Positions 20,488-30,104 of a stretch of DNA of 64,000 nt are shown here, in pieces. Both the position numbers and the translations under genes were made by a program. Origin of the DNA: Ferroplasma sp. (GTDB lineage: Archaea > Thermoplasmatota > Thermoplasmata > Thermoplasmatales > Thermoplasmataceae); contig NZ_CP133597.1 in the NCBI RefSeq assembly GCF_031200575.1, forward strand, positions 1,426,001-1,490,000, read 5' to 3'. The notes under the pieces were generated by a model. It searched no databases, had not been told where the DNA came from, and saw only the letters and a program-made list of their open reading frames with translations. Every line of letters starts with the position of its first letter. Within the stretch, counting starts at the first letter, position 1.

Positions 20488-22664
20488 TTTCTACCACCTA
20501 ATGTTGGATTTGCGACCTCATCTATACCCCTAGAAATGAATATAAACGCCAGTATGAATAGGGTGAGTGCCGCTATTGGAGGTATAGTAGCATACGGATA
20601 AACTGATATAGAATAGAAATCTCCTAGAAATGAACTAAGCATTCCGCCCCATGTAGGTATAGCTACGCTAACTAGACCGAGAATTTCAAAAGTAGAGACA
20701 GCCGCAACAGCACCCCCAATATTAATCGCAGTCAGATATACCAGCAATGTCCCCATATTTGGGATAAAATGACGTTTCATTATGCTCAATGTCTTCATAT
20801 TTGATACCTTGGCCGATTCTACAAATGTCCTCGTTTTAACACTTCTTACAATACCTATAAGGGAGAAAGTTACAAACGGCCAACCAAGCAATGAAAATAT
20901 GAATATGAGGTTAAGAAGTGATGGACCCAATACAGATGCGAGTACTATGAATAACGGTAATGTTGGTATTAGGAATATAGAAAGTGCCAAAGTTTCCATA
21001 AAAGAACTCACCAGTCCAGAATAATACCCAATAAACATTGCTACCACCAATGATATTAGTATGGTCATAATTCCTGCCGCAAAGCCCACTTCAAGATCTG
21101 GTGGGAAACTATCAATAAATAATGCAAATACATTATCATGGGCTATATTAGTTCCCAATGGTAACGGGATACCTGATACAGTATGTAAGGTTGGCCCTAT
21201 TACTATAGGAATCCCCTCAAAACTGTCAAAAATAATATTATTACCATTTAAATATGCAATAGTAGGAGATTCTGCATCTGTGACGTTTTTTCCAACTTTA
21301 AATCCATAAGGTTCTTCAAAGAGTATTGGAGTACCTATAGGTGCTTTTAGATTGGAATGCCATGAATATGGATATTTTTGGAATGGGCTTATTAAATATA
21401 TCATTTGCCCAGTAGTAGTATTGGTAAGCAAGAATTTACCACTATGATAATATTCAATATTATTAACACCGAAGGGCAATTTAATTTGATTTACAGCCTG
21501 TAATACCCCTGCTTTTGATTTTTCTAGCGCATAATAATAATTACCAGAGGATATAATTAGATCTGATGGAAAACCGCTAGACCCGCTGCTTACACCAACC
21601 GAACTTATGTCTTTAGAAGCTGTGTATATCTTATTCATCGATCCATTCTTTAAGTTTATAGTATATAGCGAATTATTTGATGCTGTAAAAGCATCATGAG
21701 TTCCGGCTACATCCTGGTAGGCTCTAGGAATTTCAAGTTTCCCTACATCAAAAGAGTATCTGGCATTAAATTCCATGCTACCATTTACTTCATAAGCAGC
21801 AACACTTTTCCCCTCTGTAACTATAACGATCGGACGTGAAGTGGTTAAGTAATTATCACCCAAAAAGTAAATATGAGGTGTGCCAGCTAATTCTAGCTTG
21901 TGAGACCACAATTCATGTAAGTTATAACTGTAATATTCATTTAAATATCTACCAGTATTATTTTGTATTACTGCATATGTATATGAACCGTATGGGGATA
22001 CTGTTGAGGTATTTGTAGGTCCCATAAATTCATCAGTTATAGCTTGGGGTTGTACGAATCTTAAATTGTTTGTACTGACAGTTGCTGTTATGATTGTTCC
22101 ATTAACAGAAGCCTGTGCAATCTGGTTTGCTTTAACTGAAGTTCCAGAAGAAGAACATATCGCCTGATAAACATATAAGCTATTATTTGTCGACGCAAAA
22201 ATATCAGTTTCAAATGATAAAGTTGTTGGATTCTCAGGAGAGAAAGCCTTCAAGCTAGTGATTGAGCCATTGGTTTTAAATAGTAAACAGCTCTTTCCAC
22301 TATCATTCGCTGTAATTGCAAATATCCCATACTGCCCCCCAGTTTTACCACCAGTAAATAGGTAATAGTTACCTGCCTTGTGTTCGCCAACTGAAGCAGA
22401 AATCTGATTCAAGCTATTTTCCACGGTAAAATTTAGTTTCTTATCCTCTATAGTTAGTGGTTTAAAATAGTCTTCCGATGGAACAGCGCTAAAAGGGTTA
22501 CCGTGTACGAGTACAGGAGCGAGTAGCGCAATTATTATAAATGCTATTAATATATAAAAACCGGCTTTACCGTACCATGATCTATAAAAGACTTTAAATT
22601 GTTTTCCGAAATTCTTTAATTTAAACTGAATGTTATCCTTTAAAATTTTTTTATTCGTTTTCAT
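20484..22664 (-). CDS. dppC: Peptide ABC transporter permease (DppC type) with a large extracellular insertion
   Basis: The start is set at ATG 22664, which overlaps the upstream permease stop as ATGA and has Shine-Dalgarno aagggtga; an earlier ATG would extend into the upstream gene. Residues 35-54 form the first membrane helix. Residues about 65-500 are a soluble, Asn/Ser/Gly/Tyr-rich, all-beta-looking region with repeated segments (NNSLYVYQ, NNSLYTIN, SGNYYYALEKS) resembling a PQQ/WD-type propeller. Normal DppC has about 40-60 residues here. From LPLGTNIAHDNVFA (501) the standard permease core resumes with five helices and the coupling loop VESAKVSNMKTLSIMKRHF. Topology puts the insertion outside the cell. 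Confidence 0.85.
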   Translation of the reverse strand: MKTNKKILKDNIQFKLKNFGKQFKVFYRSWYGKAGFYILIAFIIIALLAPVLVHGNPFSAVPSEDYFKPLTIEDKKLNFTVENSLNQISASVGEHKAGNYYLFTGGKTGGQYGIFAITANDSGKSCLLFKTNGSITSLKAFSPENPTTLSFETDIFASTNNSLYVYQAICSSSGTSVKANQIAQASVNGTIITATVSTNNLRFVQPQAITDEFMGPTNTSTVSPYGSYTYAVIQNNTGRYLNEYYSYNLHELWSHKLELAGTPHIYFLGDNYLTTSRPIVIVTEGKSVAAYEVNGSMEFNARYSFDVGKLEIPRAYQDVAGTHDAFTASNNSLYTINLKNGSMNKIYTASKDISSVGVSSGSSGFPSDLIISSGNYYYALEKSKAGVLQAVNQIKLPFGVNNIEYYHSGKFLLTNTTTGQMIYLISPFQKYPYSWHSNLKAPIGTPILFEEPYGFKVGKNVTDAESPTIAYLNGNNIIFDSFEGIPIVIGPTLHTVSGIPLPLGTNIAHDNVFALFIDSFPPDLEVGFAAGIMTILISLVVAMFIGYYSGLVSSFMETLALSIFLIPTLPLFIVLASVLGPSLLNLIFIFSLLGWPFVTFSLIGIVRSVKTRTFVESAKVSNMKTLSIMKRHFIPNMGTLLVYLTAINIGGAVAAVSTFEILGLVSVAIPTWGGMLSSFLGDFYSISVYPYATIPPIAALTLFILAFIFISRGIDEVANPTLGGRK

Positions 22665-23650
22665 ACTCTCACCCTTGGGTCTAACCATGCGTGTATAAAA
22701 TCTACTGAAGAATACGACACAATAACAACTAAAGATAAGATAAATAATGATGCTTCTATAACAGGATAATTCTCAATCAAAATGTTATCATATAATAGTA
22801 TGCCCATACCCGGTATTTCAAAAATTATACCTGTTATCACTGCACCACTCATAAGAAGGGCAAACTCGAGAGCCATTCGGGTTGATTCTGGAACCATAGC
22901 ATTTCTTGCGGCATGGTGAAACATAATTGACGATTGAGCTACCCCTTTAGCCTTAGCCGTTTGTATGAAATCTTCTCCTAATACGGATACCATAATACTC
23001 CTCATAGTAATTAAGTGGCCCATAATTTCAATAATTAAAAGAGTTAGAATTGGCATTGCAAAATAGTGTAATAAAACAAGAAAACCACTGAATGAAGGTG
23101 ATCTAAGAAATGGCCCTAATCTATAATGAGAAGCAGCTAATGGAAATATAGGATAATAAACAGCAAAAATTAGATATACTATTATAGCCATTACAAAAAA
23201 TGGGATGGAGTTTAATATTGTTGCAGTGACTAATGTAGGGCCTTCAGATTTTTTCCCTCTAATAAATGCAGTTACTATCCCTAATGGTATACCAATAGCG
23301 AATGAGCCAACTGACGCAACTCCAAAGATGATCAGTGTATATGGAAGTGCAGTTGCTATCATTGAGTAAATACTTTGGCTTAATTCAGCCGGATTATAGC
23401 CGAAATGAAATGTGAACATTTGGTGCAAATATACTAAAAATGAACTAAGGGCAAATTTATTATTAGGATTTATACCATACATTTTGTAAATACTATTTAT
23501 GGCTGCTTTAGTAGGATGCTTTAAATTACGGATATATAACTCGGCAGGATTACCAGGCATTAACCGTAATAGGACATATAAGATTACTACTACAAACAAT
23601 ATCAAAAATACTGCTTGTAATACTTTTCTACTAATAAGGTACACATTCAT
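22661..23650 (-). CDS. dppB: Peptide ABC transporter permease (DppB type)
   Basis: A six-helix permease of 329 aa from ATG 23650 (a TTG one codon upstream is less likely). LMPGNPAELYI near residue 29 and the coupling loop EDFIQTAKAKGVAQSSIM identify the DppB half of dipeptide/oligopeptide importers. The final segment ends SSVDFIHAWLDPRVRV, the usual DppB tail. It leads the minus-strand operon dppB-dppC-ATPase-small membrane protein. The binding protein gene lies upstream at 26.2-30.1 kb, now separated from it by two broken IS elements. Confidence 0.92.
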   Translation of the reverse strand: MNVYLISRKVLQAVFLILFVVVILYVLLRLMPGNPAELYIRNLKHPTKAAINSIYKMYGINPNNKFALSSFLVYLHQMFTFHFGYNPAELSQSIYSMIATALPYTLIIFGVASVGSFAIGIPLGIVTAFIRGKKSEGPTLVTATILNSIPFFVMAIIVYLIFAVYYPIFPLAASHYRLGPFLRSPSFSGFLVLLHYFAMPILTLLIIEIMGHLITMRSIMVSVLGEDFIQTAKAKGVAQSSIMFHHAARNAMVPESTRMALEFALLMSGAVITGIIFEIPGMGILLYDNILIENYPVIEASLFILSLVVIVSYSSVDFIHAWLDPRVRV

Positions 23651-23899
23651 CAAGTATCAATGGTGCAATTCATATTATTTATAAAAACCTTTTGGAAAGC
23701 GAATTTATTATTTTAATTACCAATGTCTTATATTAAAAGGCTTCTCTCCATATTCTTTTTATATTGCTCCTTAAATATTTCCTATGTATGCCCAATAAAA
23801 ATATAAGAAGAGAATACAAGCCAAGAATGAAGTGATAATGTAATACTTTCACTGTAAATTGAAAATGACTCTTTGCAATATCATAATGAGGTAAACAAA

Positions 23900-24882
23900 A
23901 TGACAAATGCAAAGAGTCAATTAATAAGTATAGAAGAACTAATAAAGCTTTTCATAAATGATAGAAAAGAGGGAAAGAAGGAATTGATTACATGGTTTTT
24001 AAACAATGTAATGGATCAGGAGGCCATTGAACAATTAAATGCTGATAAATATGAAAGGAATAATAAAAGGACAGGATACAGGAATGGGACAAAGAAGAGG
24101 AAATTAAAGACTGTGGATGGAGAATTAACATTAGACAAGCCTGATATAAGGTCAGGTTTATTCACAACCACTGTATTTGACAAGTATTCAACTGTAGAAA
24201 AGGCTTTAGACTCTGTAATAGCTGAGTCATACATTAATGGAGTATTAACCAGGTCAGTAAACAATATAATAAATAATCTGGGTGTAAATGTATCTCCTGA
24301 GTATGTATCATCACTGAATAAGGAACTTGATGCCAAGGTTAAAGAGTTCCTGGAAACAAGGATAGATGATAAATAAGATACCTGTACATAGATGCAATAT
24401 ACTTTAAAGTCAGGGAAAATAGTAAATACAGACCAATGGCATTATACACATCAATAGTTGTAAACAGCAATGGAATAAGGCAGATTCTTTCCATGGATGT
24501 TTATAATTCAGAGGATGAGCTGGACTTGAATAATTTCTTCTTCAAGCTCCAGGAAAGGGGATTGACAGGTCTTAAATCTGTAATATCAGATGGTCATAAT
24601 GGTATAATGAAATCTATTAAGGAATCGTTCCCAGGATCATTATGGCAGTACTGCCATTTCCATTTCATAAGGAATTTAAGGAAGACCATGGAAAGGGAAC
24701 AGTGGAAGAATATATCAAAGTTAGTGCCAGAGGCATTAATGGATGAATCACTGTTTAAGATAGCAATAGATAGAATGGAGGAAATGAAATTAAATAAATC
24801 CATTGACATGCTGTATAAGTGGTATGATTCATTATATTCATACACATCATTCCCTGGAGAACATCAAGGAAAGAAATCATGA
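23900..24882 (+). pseudogene. Broken IS256/Mutator-type transposase
   Basis: The first frame runs from ATG 23900 (Shine-Dalgarno gaggt) to a stop at 24374-24376 and matches the N-terminal half of IS256 transposases (YERNNKRTGYRNGTKKRKL and a first Asp region). The second frame picks up at once as RYLYIDAIYFKVREN, then LKSVISDGHNGIMKSI (second Asp) and CHFHFIRNL, and ends at 24880 after FPGEHQGKKS. A one-base frameshift near 24376 and loss of the C-terminal quarter, including the catalytic Glu region, make it inactive. The IS110-type element follows directly and does not resume IS256 sequence on its far side, so a deletion accompanied or followed its arrival. Confidence 0.8.
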
Positions 24883-24892
24883 AAAACCTTAT

Positions 24893-25079
24893 TTAGCCTC
24901 AGCTATATGACGATATAGCTGTGAGAATCGAAGGCGGTTGTTATGCAGCTTGACCCTTGAGGCCGTTAGAAAGAATAGCCGCCCTTCGACTCGATTTCTT
25001 ACCTCATTAACATCTAATAAGGTGAATAGGAGTTTGTCGAGTCTACGATTCTAAATCTCACAGAATCAGAGGCGATTAA
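24893..25079 (+). ncRNA. Structured left end of an IS110-type element, candidate bridge RNA
   Basis: 187 non-coding bases before an IS110-family recombinase frame. AGCTATAT GACG ATATAGCT (24901-24920) is a perfect 8-bp hairpin. CGAAGGCGG (24929-24937) pairs with CCGCCCTTCG (24979-24988) with one bulge, closing a loop of about 41 nt. GATTCT and AGAATC (25047-25052, 25062-25067) form a third stem. IS110-group elements are known to carry a bridge RNA between the left end and the recombinase gene, with loops pairing to target and donor DNA. The position and folding fit. Loop-to-target pairing was not established. Confidence 0.4.
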
Positions 25080-25981
25080 ATGGTAAGCGGCTTGGATGTA
25101 CATAAACGTTCCGTATATGCTACGGCTATGGAGGATAATGTGGCTCTTATTGTCCAGAGGAATATGGAGAATAATATAGAGGTGGTTAATGGATTTTTAT
25201 TTAATTACAGGGATCATGATATTGTAATAGAATCATCAACATCAGGCAAGTATCTCTCTAAGGAGTTGTCAATGCTTGGCTATAAGGTTCACCTGATAAA
25301 TCCTGCAAAGGTTCCTGAAATAGCAAATAACTGCAAGAAGACAGACAGGGAGGATTCATTCCAGCTTGCAGATGTATTCAGGAAGGGAGGAATGAAGGAG
25401 ATATACATTCTATCAGGAGATATAGAGAATGTAAGGTCCCTGGTAAGGTACAGGCATTCACTTGGAGGGGAGATAACATTAAAGAAGAATAAGGCACATG
25501 CACTGTTAACATCCTATGGAATAATAATTAAGGCTACAGACCCGTTCGGTAAGAAGGGATTAAGGGAAATTGAAAATAATTATAACAATCTTAATTATTC
25601 TGATAAGATAGTCTTAAGATCCTTAATAATGACATATCATTTATTAAGGAAAGATTTGCATCATACACCGGTTTAATACCTAGGGAGCATTCATCTGGTG
25701 AAAAGGCAATAAAGGGCCATATAACAAAGCATGGTCCATCATTATTAAGATTCTTTTTGGTTGAAACAGTACATTCATTAATAAAGTATACAAGGAAATT
25801 TAAATCAAAATATCTTAGCATGGTAAGAAGATTGGGAAAGAAAAGATCTATAATAGCAAGAATATTAGCAGAAACAATCTATGCAATGTTAAAAAACAAT
25901 GTAAGATACATTGAAAGGGAAAGAGGTGAAACAGCCAATCCTGATGAATTTATATATAGCGAGTCTACTTTGTTATACTGA
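25080..25981 (+). pseudogene. IS110-family DEDD recombinase with internal deletion
   Basis: The first frame (198 codons) holds the RuvC-like DEDD domain: GLDVHKRSVYATA (Asp), VIESSTSGKYL (Glu) and KKTDREDSFQLADVF (Asp-Asp pair). At about 25650 the frame changes without the usual 50-70 residue linker, and the C-terminal Tnp20-type domain follows in another frame: RFASYTGLIPREHSSGEKA then KGHITKHGPSLL with the Ser/Gly-rich active-site loop. An out-of-frame deletion joined the two, so the protein is dead. Both catalytic domains are otherwise well preserved, suggesting recent inactivation. The element's right end is near 25990. Confidence 0.85.
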
Positions 25982-26243: not shown

Positions 26244-29200
26244 TTATGTCTTTTGTTTTTTTCTTTTTGTTATAAAGAAGAGTCCAAGTCCAATGACAAC
26301 TATGGCAGCTATTACCCCACCTATGATGTAATAGTCTGTATAATTGGATATACTCTTGAATGTAACATCCACAGTTTGGTTAGAGCCGTTTATGGTTACA
26401 TTACCTGAACTATTCTTTAGTATTTTGTATCCAGATATGTTTCCCACTTTATAAACATATGTTCCATTTAGCTCTGCAAATACTATTTTGGAGGTGGATG
26501 ACTTTTCAGTGACCCCATTTAGTGCTACAGACCATGTGGTTCCAGATCTCAATCCACTTTCTGCAAATGTCACATTATACATATATTCTATCTGATTTTG
26601 TTGTAAATTAGTAGTTTGGATTGCTACAGCTCCATCTCCATACGCGGTTATCTGGAATTCATCATATGGGAGTATCGAACTATTAACAGTTTCTGGCATT
26701 ATGACTCCAGTAGTCTTGTTGTACTGATAGAACTCTGATGTGAAATTCGCATATGCGATTCCATTTGCATTGGTTACTAAATGTATAGCAGGTTCAAATC
26801 CACTGCCAGTAGCAGGCCCACAGGTTGTTAATAACAAACCATTCGGGTTTGACATTGACATATTTGAATTCAGGAAGTAACCTCTGTTTGCACCCAGCGC
26901 ATTTTGAGAGCTTACATTCAAACTGTATCCTGCAACAGCTTTCCCATTATCAGTTACCTTATACATCAGCTCTGTTACTTTAGAAGATATCTGTTTCTGG
27001 CTTACTGATATAGCATAACTATTTGGGGATTTCTCCAGCTCTATTGGAAGTTCAACTGGTTCCCCGGACCCATACCCGTTTGGATTCTCTGAGGATGTCA
27101 CCTCACCGATTACCATATAGGGAGCTTCACCGTATACCGGGGCGTCTAGAGCATAATCTCCTAGGTATATATACTGTAATACATTAGCCCCATTCAGTGT
27201 ATAATTGAAAGTTGAATTTACGGCAATTAACACAGATATGTTTCCATTTGCACCAGTCTGGCCCGTTATAGATGTCATCATAGTGCTATTGTATGTACTA
27301 TTTACTGGTATAGATACTTCTGTGTAATCACATAATGCACTGTAAGTACTTACATTAGAGATGCTTTGGACCGAAGACGTTCTTTTCATTGTAATGGCTG
27401 CCCGCATAGCCTGTATAGTATATTCATAACCTGAGATAGGTTTACCTGTTATCGGATTATATACTGTTATATTGTAATAATTATATCCAGTTCCAGAGAT
27501 TGCAGAAGGTCCTGATACTTTGTATGCTACACTGTGAGGTAGATCATTTACGTTGACTATTCCTATTCCAGAGGCTATGCTTGTGTTAGTAGGAACCACT
27601 GTAGCTGTCACCGGTACTAATCCATTGTATCCAAGTACATTAATGAAGGAGTTATCAGGCGAGACCTGGAATTTATACACTGCCATACCTTGGCTATTAG
27701 TGGTAAGTGTGTACGAAGTTATATTCAGCAGTGATGGTTCCTCTGTAACTGTCACCTTAGCCCCGGATATAGGATTTCCGTTCAAACTGTTAGTGGCTAT
27801 ATAAGTTATTTGACCGTACTGTCCATCGGTATATACAGTCTGATTCGCATACCCAGTAACCACTACATGTGCAGTTGGTTTAGATATTACCGTGGGCTTG
27901 CTTTTCAGATGAACTGACATTTCATTATAATACCAGAACCCGTTTATATCTGACGGCACGTCAGTTATGCCCGTAAATGTACTGGTTTGCCATGCTATAT
28001 TGTCCTTGGGCCCGTATCCAATAGGCATCATAGTAGACTCATTATCCTCTATATATTGCATCACGTCCATTGCAGACACAACTGTGCGGACGCTAGAGGA
28101 AGAAGTTGCTATATTGGTTAAATTAGTCATTAACGAATCTATCTGTTTGCCAGTCATGTATGTATCAGGTATATTGAATATACTATTTAATGGCGTGGTT
28201 ACATTCATGCCAGAAAATGGCCCCTGATAGTCTCCTGTGCCTATAGAGGAGGAATAGTTGTAGTCATCTATTACATCTACAGCCGTATCTCCAAGGAGAC
28301 CAGATACTCCAAGCGTTATTATATTATAGGATGTAGACGGGCTCGCACCAGCGTTATCATATGCATCTAAATGTGTAATCTCAGTTGAAAAGCTTTCAGA
28401 CTCGATTGTAGTAGCTATACCTATCTTATCCCAGTCTGAAGCGATGGCCTCGTAACCGGTAAATATCTGTGGTATAAGGGATGAGGATGGAGATTGTATT
28501 GTCGCTGTTACCTCTGTGCCTTTATAATACCAATGCCCGCCCTTATATGTCATTCCCGGTATACTGGCTATGGTGCTATTAGCCTTTGACGGGTTATATG
28601 AAAATGATGGTACAGCCGAATAGTAGTAAGGAGAATCTATTGCAGGTATGGTAGAATAACCTGGCGTAAGATACCCGTCACAAATTGACGACTGTATGTA
28701 ACCAAGGGGAGATGCCATTCTCAATGCCTGTCTGAATGCAGTAATATTGTATGGTGCGTCATCTGCATATGAGTTAAATTTGAAATATGCATATCCAGTA
28801 GAAGGTTTTTCCAGTACATTAACGCCAGGAATCCCCTCAACTGTTGGTAAAAACTCACTAGATAAATCGCTTTCTATTGCATCGACTTTCCCGGTACTTA
28901 AAGCCCCAACAGCTCCTGAAGGACTAGCGTAAATAGATACATTTACACTATATATTTTTGGAGCAAACTGGCTTACATCATATACAGGATTAGGGCTAAC
29001 TGGTAATGCATCATTTATGCTATTACTAATAGTTCTCAAAAAGAAATGCGGATTAACATAAACAGACCAGTAATCGCTGGTAAATAAATGCCCTACGGGT
29101 TCGCCAAATCCACCATTCATCATGAATGGGCCAGTACCAACAAGTCCCGGATATAGCCCATTTCCTGTACCGAATGCTCCGCTATGCCCCATGTCCCATT

Positions 29201-30104
29201 CATTATATGCACCTGAACTAGGTAAAGTTGATGATGATGCTGTTTCATTCCACAGTCCACTCCCTGCCGAAGCATAATCATGTGATACCCATATGTGATA
29301 TGGTAGTATAGGCGTTTCCAGAGTATCTGGAACAAATATACCACTTGGTCCATTAAGGAAATATTCAACGGTGAGATTATTCAATGGCATTACATTTACT
29401 ACATGTGCATATTCCCCAGATAGATCTTCAGCACTGTTCAATAGTTTCCATGATAATATGAAGTCTGCAGCCTGCACATATTCTGTTCTCATTGTAATTG
29501 GTACTGCTGCCTGATATTTTCCTGAAGTTGCGTTATATACCTGTTTATATGTATGTGAAAATGAAACGCCAGTATCGTTTGTAAATGATGTGTGGTTAGA
29601 ATATATATATGTGTCAGCTGAGTTTGTTGAATTGTAATCGCTCCATTCAACACCCGGTCTTATATGCACTGTATATATTTCATAAACACTTGAATCTGCA
29701 CCAGTTAGTGGATCAAAAGTTGTTATAGGTGTTGCTGGTTTTGAAACTGTATAGTTATCTGCCAAACAATATATTAAGCTCCCGTTCGGAAGCTCTGTAG
29801 TTGCAGAACTATACAATAAATCAAGTATGTAAAAGTCACATACAGTTGCTGCCTCGTAATAGTTAACGTGATCAGGATTACCTATTTGTGCAAGTTTTAA
29901 CGTGCCATTAGCTGATGTGGGGACTGCTGGTGATGCACTTACAGGCAATGCCGTCTGACCTGCACTTCCAGATACCAACCCAGAATTTTGAGTGGCGTTG
30001 CCCCCAATATTACCACTGAGAGGTTCCATCAAAAACAGCAATGCCACAATTATAGCAAAAGCTATAACTAATTTCTTGCTTCCTAAAATACCCTTTTTAT
30101 TCAT
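26244..30104 (-). CDS. Membrane-anchored peptide-binding protein of the ABC transporter, 1286 aa
   Basis: A signal/anchor (KKLVIAFAIIVALLFLMEPL) is followed by a family-5 solute-binding domain (about residues 60-740) with HIRPGVEWSDYNSTNSADTY and the later YFKFNSYADDAPYNITAFRQ-type lobe. Immunoglobulin-like beta domains then fill about 760-1160, for example GNPISGAKVTVTEE and TGKPISGYEYTI. A short domain beginning YNVTFAESGLRSGTTWSVAL, common in archaeal surface proteins, precedes a C-terminal helix (YYIIGGVIAAIVVIGLGLFF) and basic tail. It would stand off the membrane and hand peptides to the permeases at 20.5-23.7 kb. A TATA box (gtttatatataac) lies about 25-37 nt before the ATG. Confidence 0.88.
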   Translation of the reverse strand: MNKKGILGSKKLVIAFAIIVALLFLMEPLSGNIGGNATQNSGLVSGSAGQTALPVSASPAVPTSANGTLKLAQIGNPDHVNYYEAATVCDFYILDLLYSSATTELPNGSLIYCLADNYTVSKPATPITTFDPLTGADSSVYEIYTVHIRPGVEWSDYNSTNSADTYIYSNHTSFTNDTGVSFSHTYKQVYNATSGKYQAAVPITMRTEYVQAADFILSWKLLNSAEDLSGEYAHVVNVMPLNNLTVEYFLNGPSGIFVPDTLETPILPYHIWVSHDYASAGSGLWNETASSSTLPSSGAYNEWDMGHSGAFGTGNGLYPGLVGTGPFMMNGGFGEPVGHLFTSDYWSVYVNPHFFLRTISNSINDALPVSPNPVYDVSQFAPKIYSVNVSIYASPSGAVGALSTGKVDAIESDLSSEFLPTVEGIPGVNVLEKPSTGYAYFKFNSYADDAPYNITAFRQALRMASPLGYIQSSICDGYLTPGYSTIPAIDSPYYYSAVPSFSYNPSKANSTIASIPGMTYKGGHWYYKGTEVTATIQSPSSSLIPQIFTGYEAIASDWDKIGIATTIESESFSTEITHLDAYDNAGASPSTSYNIITLGVSGLLGDTAVDVIDDYNYSSSIGTGDYQGPFSGMNVTTPLNSIFNIPDTYMTGKQIDSLMTNLTNIATSSSSVRTVVSAMDVMQYIEDNESTMMPIGYGPKDNIAWQTSTFTGITDVPSDINGFWYYNEMSVHLKSKPTVISKPTAHVVVTGYANQTVYTDGQYGQITYIATNSLNGNPISGAKVTVTEEPSLLNITSYTLTTNSQGMAVYKFQVSPDNSFINVLGYNGLVPVTATVVPTNTSIASGIGIVNVNDLPHSVAYKVSGPSAISGTGYNYYNITVYNPITGKPISGYEYTIQAMRAAITMKRTSSVQSISNVSTYSALCDYTEVSIPVNSTYNSTMMTSITGQTGANGNISVLIAVNSTFNYTLNGANVLQYIYLGDYALDAPVYGEAPYMVIGEVTSSENPNGYGSGEPVELPIELEKSPNSYAISVSQKQISSKVTELMYKVTDNGKAVAGYSLNVSSQNALGANRGYFLNSNMSMSNPNGLLLTTCGPATGSGFEPAIHLVTNANGIAYANFTSEFYQYNKTTGVIMPETVNSSILPYDEFQITAYGDGAVAIQTTNLQQNQIEYMYNVTFAESGLRSGTTWSVALNGVTEKSSTSKIVFAELNGTYVYKVGNISGYKILKNSSGNVTINGSNQTVDVTFKSISNYTDYYIIGGVIAAIVVIGLGLFFITKRKKQKT

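Follow-up and report, generated by a model that had tools for sequence, protein, structure and literature searches.

A predicted bridge RNA at the left end of a decayed IS110-family element in a thermoplasmatal archaeon

What is the role of the 187 bp of non-coding DNA that precede a broken recombinase gene in the genome of a Ferroplasma strain? The stretch (24893..25079) lies within a window of 64,000 nucleotides, i.e., the whole stretch of DNA analyzed here, to which all coordinates refer (all features are on the + strand). The initial annotation took it for the left end of an IS110 element with a candidate archaeal bridge RNA, the kind of guide that pairs with donor and target DNA. The archaeal origin agreed with the closest named records, whose sources are archaea of the Thermoplasmata and Thermoplasmatales, E-plasma and Acidiplasma aeolicum among them. 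From the comparisons described below we consider, with a probability of about 0.93, that the stretch is the left end and the putative bridge RNA gene of a dead IS110-family element of a thermoplasmatal archaeon.

A dead copy and its intact relatives

A sequence search found 13 matching places in the same genome. The copies in this genome and in the rest of the genus differ in their left flanks, which are unrelated, and become alike from AG-AAATC-ATGAAAAACC on; the left end was therefore placed where this homology starts, at 24872. The start at 24893 proposed before was thus 21 bases too far to the right, and both the core dinucleotide and the subterminal repeat lie in the added bases. The end begins with the core AG (24872..24873), which is also present in an uninserted paralogue, followed by the donor half AAATC (24874..24878), both forming a 7-bp left extension (24872..24878), and by the left subterminal inverted repeat ATGAAAAACC (24879..24888), recognized by comparison of the copies and by a repeat scan of relatives. 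The partner of this repeat, GGTTTTTCAT, is missing from the window copy; intact copies have it at their right end. As the right end of the intact relatives is GGTTTTTCAT-AGG-AG, their ends have a perfect 10-bp subterminal inverted repeat, with a left extension of 7 bp and a right one of 3 bp followed by the core. The core had first been assigned as GA, which was rejected for AG because the frames of the interrupted IS3-type genes (L056a, L016) and the empty IS256-type site give AG.

The recombinase of the window copy is broken, as the initial annotation had stated. Its remnants are an N-terminal DEDD domain (25080..25676; Pfam DEDD_Tnp_IS110, E 2e-17) and a C-terminal part (25655..25950) recognized by homology to intact copies. 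This homology is interrupted near 25650 and does not continue beyond about 25950, and the right end has been lost. This copy is dead, but intact relatives exist. No full-length open recombinase frame was listed among the copies of the same genome; intact frames of 384–388 aa were found in genomes G005, G006 and G008, and in intact copies both ends could be defined. Three intact relatives (384–385 aa) have both the DEDD_Tnp_IS110 and the Transposase_20 domains, of which the window copy keeps only the first. In 12 aligned recombinase rows D6, E51, D89, D92 and S256-G257 are invariant, S256 being aligned with the SG of IS621.

The element had entered an IS256-type (Mutator) transposase gene (23873..24871; Pfam Transposase_mut, with uninterrupted relatives available), the frame of which is already broken. 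These nested insertions are located between two frames that we judged by eye, one with the look of an ABC-transporter permease (22661-23653) and one of 1286 aa with the look of a secreted solute-binding protein (26244-30104).

Several copies consist of little more than the left end, and they were considered as a family of mobile mini-elements. This was mostly rejected because several of them are cut off by the end of a contig (L048, L034, L026, L065) or run into an unrelated repeat (L019, L049, L050); the end of the latter, TGATRTTGGRTAGTGATTC, is separate from the element and interrupts or adjoins these three copies. The only short copy with a right junction at the donor-guide DNA was L042 (G006:C23, about 505-667), a left-end-only copy of ~160 bp with the junction GAATAGG-AG and target matches on both sides. 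The right end necessarily repeats the donor-guide DNA in direct orientation (ATAGGAG), and a deletion between the two, or the recombinase, could therefore trim elements to the bare RNA gene; going by its junction, L042 could be one such case. Left-end remnants of only 24 bases, AGAAATCATGAAAAACCTTATTTA, were found in L089 (G006:C38) and L047 (G008:C32); behind one of them there is an internal deletion, located at a TTATTTA repeat. In L112 and L113 (E-plasma and a related MAG) an element of group B directly abuts the end of an element of group C, with the AG core in common.

Fold and covariation of the predicted RNA

The predicted bridge RNA extends from 24893 to 25062 (ends approximate). The three structures described in the initial annotation, a perfect 8-bp hairpin, a stem closing a loop of about 41 nt and a third stem near the start codon, are all present. 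The first is a 5' stem-loop, CAGCTATA/TATAGCTG (24900..24921), seen in the sequence, the fold and the alignment. The second would be the target-binding loop (24930..24987), with an outer stem in which GAAGGCGG (24930-24937) pairs with CCGCC-CTTC (24979-24987) and encloses exactly 41 nt, containing two guides and an inner hairpin. The third would be the donor-binding loop (24989..25042), with an outer stem ACTCGA/TCGAGT (24989-24994 and 25037-25042) and an inner stem TTACCT/AGGTGA. Both loops were identified from fold and covariation.

The 187-nt strand folds at -60.9 kcal/mol, compared to -43.2 +/- 3.9 for shuffled sequences (z -4.5, 0/200). The opposite strand also folds well (z -3.65), so the strand is not fixed by the fold alone, and a comparison of G-U with A-C pairs drew most of its G-U cells from two nearly constant pairs. 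We chose the sense strand since it is the only one on which the two guides both terminate in the core, like those of IS621. Covariation was analyzed in an alignment (A3) of 20 RNAs from the order Thermoplasmatales, leaving the 5' hairpin out of the pair count because there the two groups are offset by one base. The 17 pairs of three helices were 94.4% paired versus 79.1% after shuffling (0/500), and 13 of them had double changes; slid versions of the same pairing never exceeded 55%. The structure thus covaries across genera, which was one of the expectations raised by the bridge RNA proposal. At gathering thresholds Rfam recognized in the window only three tRNAs, and the RNA had no match there.

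A structured region directly 5' of a recombinase frame that folds well on both strands might also be a set of DNA-level hairpins bound by the recombinase, or an attenuator preceding its gene, with no guide RNA involved. We consider this highly implausible, given that it would leave unexplained three observations detailed in the next section: only two internal positions match the target flanks, donor-loop bases change jointly with distant element ends, and the guides predict an uninserted site.

Guides, element ends and insertion sites

A bridge RNA should carry in its loops the sequences of its own element ends and of its target, and matches of both kinds were found, one target match being to a site that is still uninserted elsewhere in this genome, so that the candidate put forward by the initial annotation gained support from covarying structure and from predicted donor and target guides. 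On its 5' side the donor loop has the guide GATTT-CT (24993..24999), complement of the AG-AAATC at the left end. At fixed alignment columns, this side was the exact complement of the five core-adjacent bases of the 7-bp end in 26/29 elements, in four compensatory versions (GATTT, GACAT, GACCT, GACAC). On its 3' side the guide ATAGG-AG (25026..25032) reads in the same direction as CATAGG-AG, with which intact copies end on the right, and equaled the five bases at this other end in 24 of the 26 elements that could be scored (three had no usable right end), in three versions (ATAGG, ATAGA, ATAGT). As read from the aligned copies, the changes in the donor loop and in the ends are compensatory, with one of the ends more than 1 kilobase away from the putative RNA loop. 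A point against the guide reading is that the second position of the donor-guide core is often A instead of T. Core changes track the guides in part: L057 has a guide core TT and a right-end core AA, and L015 a guide core CC and a left-end core GG, but L056b and L014 have a guide core TT although both ends are AG.

In the target loop, guide 1 (TATGCAG plus the core CT, 24942..24950) would pair with AG-CTGCATA, located to the right of the insertion point, and guide 2 (TAGAA plus the core AG, 24967..24973) has the sense of the left flank. Guide 1 matched at 7/7 positions the CTGCATA of an uninserted transposase gene of the same genome (L105). Guide 2 matched 4/5 positions of this paralogue and 3/5 of the window's own left flank. 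Among seven distinct uninterrupted relatives of the insertion stretch, three (L104, L105, L091) have CTGCATAC right after the insertion point, and over the seven positions that follow this point L098 and L101 differ by one base and L092 and L097 by two. Shuffled versions of the window RNA gave a 7/7 match anywhere in 1.2% of the trials, and the real match is at the predicted place. A second empty site was available for L016, inserted in an IS3-type gene whose uninterrupted relative in L019 is GTGCATAA-AG-GATGTATTC. Guide 2 of this element is CATAAAGGAT; to match ATGTATTC, guide 1 has to be shifted by three bases. The reconstructed empty sites have only AG in common, indicating insertion without target duplication at the shared core. 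No empty site was obtained for L015, whose flanking homology ends before the junction is reached, or for L057, whose right flank is away from the syntenic place.

We compared guides and flanks over 29 elements, taking the register from the core and permuting the guides among the elements. Guide 1 (7 nt) matched at 109/203 positions versus 63.5 after permutation, and guide 2 (5 nt) at 91/145 versus 46.4 (0/20000 in both cases). For the window row we used the flanks of the uninserted paralogue L105 in place of those of the window copy. The set, which also served for the donor guides and for the scan described below, excludes L017 (same insertion as the window), L113 (sequence identical to L112), L127 and L157 (RNA decayed or right end missing), L154 and the copies of the genus without a right end. 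Three copies of G019 (L117, L030, L040) were counted separately, and L038 and L025 were assumed to be one element over two contigs, the guides of which mismatch and count against the guide reading. The matching is uneven: guide 1 reaches at least 5/7 in 13/29 elements and guide 2 at least 4/5 in 11/29, and the fit is poor on at least one side in L014, L056b, L038, L058, L112, L119, L120, L121 and L168. Group C alone, with five elements too small by itself, gave p 0.45 for guide 1 and p 0.025 for guide 2 with one base of play.

Could these matches come from flanks that are shared by descent, or from windows picked by eye? Related rows can inflate permutation tests, the left flanks of L116 and L126 are alike, and the guide windows had initially been read by eye. 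Since they had been chosen after viewing the sequences, we ran an unbiased scan of every RNA column, in both senses and against both flanks (612 tests), and this choice-free procedure found the same two places, guide 2 at z 7.6 and guide 1 at z 5.6, with the third at 3.8. As for descent, the left flanks of the copies of the genus are unrelated except for the window/L017 pair, and L017, like L113, was excluded; restricting the permutation to the 26 distinct guide pairs left the result unchanged; and the covariation of the donor guides is independent of the flanks. Using only left flanks, 24 copies of the genus gave 70/120 matches versus 43.5 (0/100000); reduced to a single copy for each of the 14 distinct guides, the set gave 39 versus 24.9 (p 0.0005). 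We therefore give next to no credence to shared descent or choice of windows as the source of the matches.

In addition, the right flank of L042 coincides with L255 (G003:C133, 200-416), a MITE-like repeat of ~215 bp with the ends TTGCATAA/TTATGCAA, and a guide for its terminal sequence is present in the RNAs of L042, L048, L049, L038 and L044. Given that several predicted RNAs guide to the end of this repeat, other mobile elements seem to be preferred targets.

With the stretch read as a bridge RNA gene, the recombinase of the live ancestor would have bound an RNA transcribed from the left end. The donor loop (GATTT-CT, ATAGG-AG) would have paired with the joined element ends of a presumed circular form, whose junction is expected to be GGTTTTTCATAGG-AG-AAATCATG, and the target loop (TATGCAG-CT, TAGAA-AG) with both strands of the site in the IS256-type transposase gene. 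By analogy with IS621, the shared AG core would then have been the site of strand exchange by the recombinase, with no duplication of the target.

Placement between IS110 and IS1111

The assignment to IS110 in the initial annotation stands at the level of the family: the relatives have both domains, the guide RNA predicted from sequence is structured, and insertion occurs without target duplication. The subterminal repeats, the terminal extensions and the guide order are IS1111-like. The repeats, of 10 bp in the genus and 9–14 bp in relatives, are not the short ones of IS110 in the narrow sense and are within the 7–17 bp of IS1111, as are the 7-bp and 3-bp extensions (8 bp at the left in L114, L115, L116 and L119). 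The complement of the top strand comes first in the RNA, so that in the recombinase frame the narrow IS110 order (left before right target guide) is reversed. As in IS110, the RNA is upstream of the recombinase, in the left end, instead of downstream as in IS1111. By these sequence traits the element is a mosaic of IS1111 and IS110 types. The upstream RNA and the two-loop shape like that of IS621 would also fit a plain IS110-group element that resembles IS1111 by chance, which is very unlikely since perfect repeats of 9–14 bp with 7- or 8-bp and 3-bp extensions recur in the scanned relatives and are accompanied by the order with the top-strand complement first.

Among the described systems, IS621, of the IS110 group, also has the RNA upstream, with a 5' stem-loop, a target loop and a donor loop, two guides per loop including the core, a catalytic SG motif and, in the RNA frame, the core CT; its group has, however, repeats of 2–3 bp versus the 10-bp subterminal repeat found here (PMC11208160, PMC11208158), and in the recombinase frame the element described here has the reverse guide order and the core AG. 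The seekRNA elements of the IS1111 group (ISEc11 and relatives, PMC11187229) share the subterminal repeats, the 7-bp and 3-bp extensions and the top-strand complement in first place, but have their RNA gene downstream of the recombinase. An upstream RNA is considered the IS110 layout (PMC11187229, PMC11208160), with a few exceptions in IS1111 such as ISMtsp17 (PMC11187229). ISC1229 of Sulfolobales is likewise an archaeal IS110-family element with mostly decayed copies, for which the text consulted in PMC10883916 discusses Cbp1 binding and the circle promoter and mentions no guide RNA. The recombinase motif GLIP-4-SG fits the published IS1111 motif and also the looser one of IS110. In a recombinase tree, built without labelled IS1111 or IS110 rows and disregarding L232, which had been read out of frame, the clade with the layout of the window (12 rows) had a support of 100/99; the branch of group C was weakly supported (67/27) and the tree is silent on the ancestral orientation.

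The sister group, group C, contributed five elements to the tests. Its RNA is homologous and its donor asymmetry unchanged, with the block of RNA and recombinase inverted relative to the ends, so that the 3-bp end is upstream and the 7-bp one downstream. Seen in the recombinase frame, group C has the IS110 guide order and core CT, and the window group the IS1111 order and core AG. In the RNA's own frame the guide arrangement is identical in both. Micrarchaeal L160 has the canonical IS1111 layout with the same pairing (read by eye). Canonical downstream layouts were seen in Micrarchaeota (L160, L164, L184), and the same ends with an upstream RNA also in Leptospiraceae and Acidobacteria (L173, L190, L217). 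We conclude that block orientation, RNA side and repeat length appear to vary independently, with a constant predicted pairing geometry. The flipped block suggests that the opposite guide order reported for IS110 and IS1111 may be a matter of orientation rather than of different chemistry. It is rather probable that orientation and not mechanism accounts for it and that repeats, RNA side and guide order are separable traits. Within one genus, 24 copies have 14 distinct left guides and conserved donor guides. Jointly with the orientation reading, we find it fairly likely that the target guides have been rewritten many times in one genus while the donor guides stayed fixed.

Judging by their names, we take the worked examples in the bridge RNA and seekRNA papers to be bacterial, and no paper working out the guides and targets of an archaeal element was found in a search that left aside supplements, ISfinder and most subscription papers. 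As far as searched, the worked-out archaeal set, the prediction of an empty site, the many guide sets in one genus and the inverted block are new. The widening of the known range anticipated by the initial annotation is thus partial, because archaea were already included in the general seekRNA claim for IS1111 elements of bacteria and archaea (PMC11187229) and bridge RNAs had been predicted for most IS110 and IS1111 elements of ISfinder (PMC11208160, 2024); natural redirection of single elements had also been reported (PMC11187229).

Bridge-RNA recombinases are under development as programmable tools for DNA rearrangement, and a set from acid-loving archaea could yield enzymes for harsher conditions. 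The copies of this genus, with their varied left guides and conserved donor guides, are a natural record of retargeting. Finally, the flipped block of group C bears on the difference in mechanism between IS110 and IS1111, which the accessible text of PMC11187229 leaves open.
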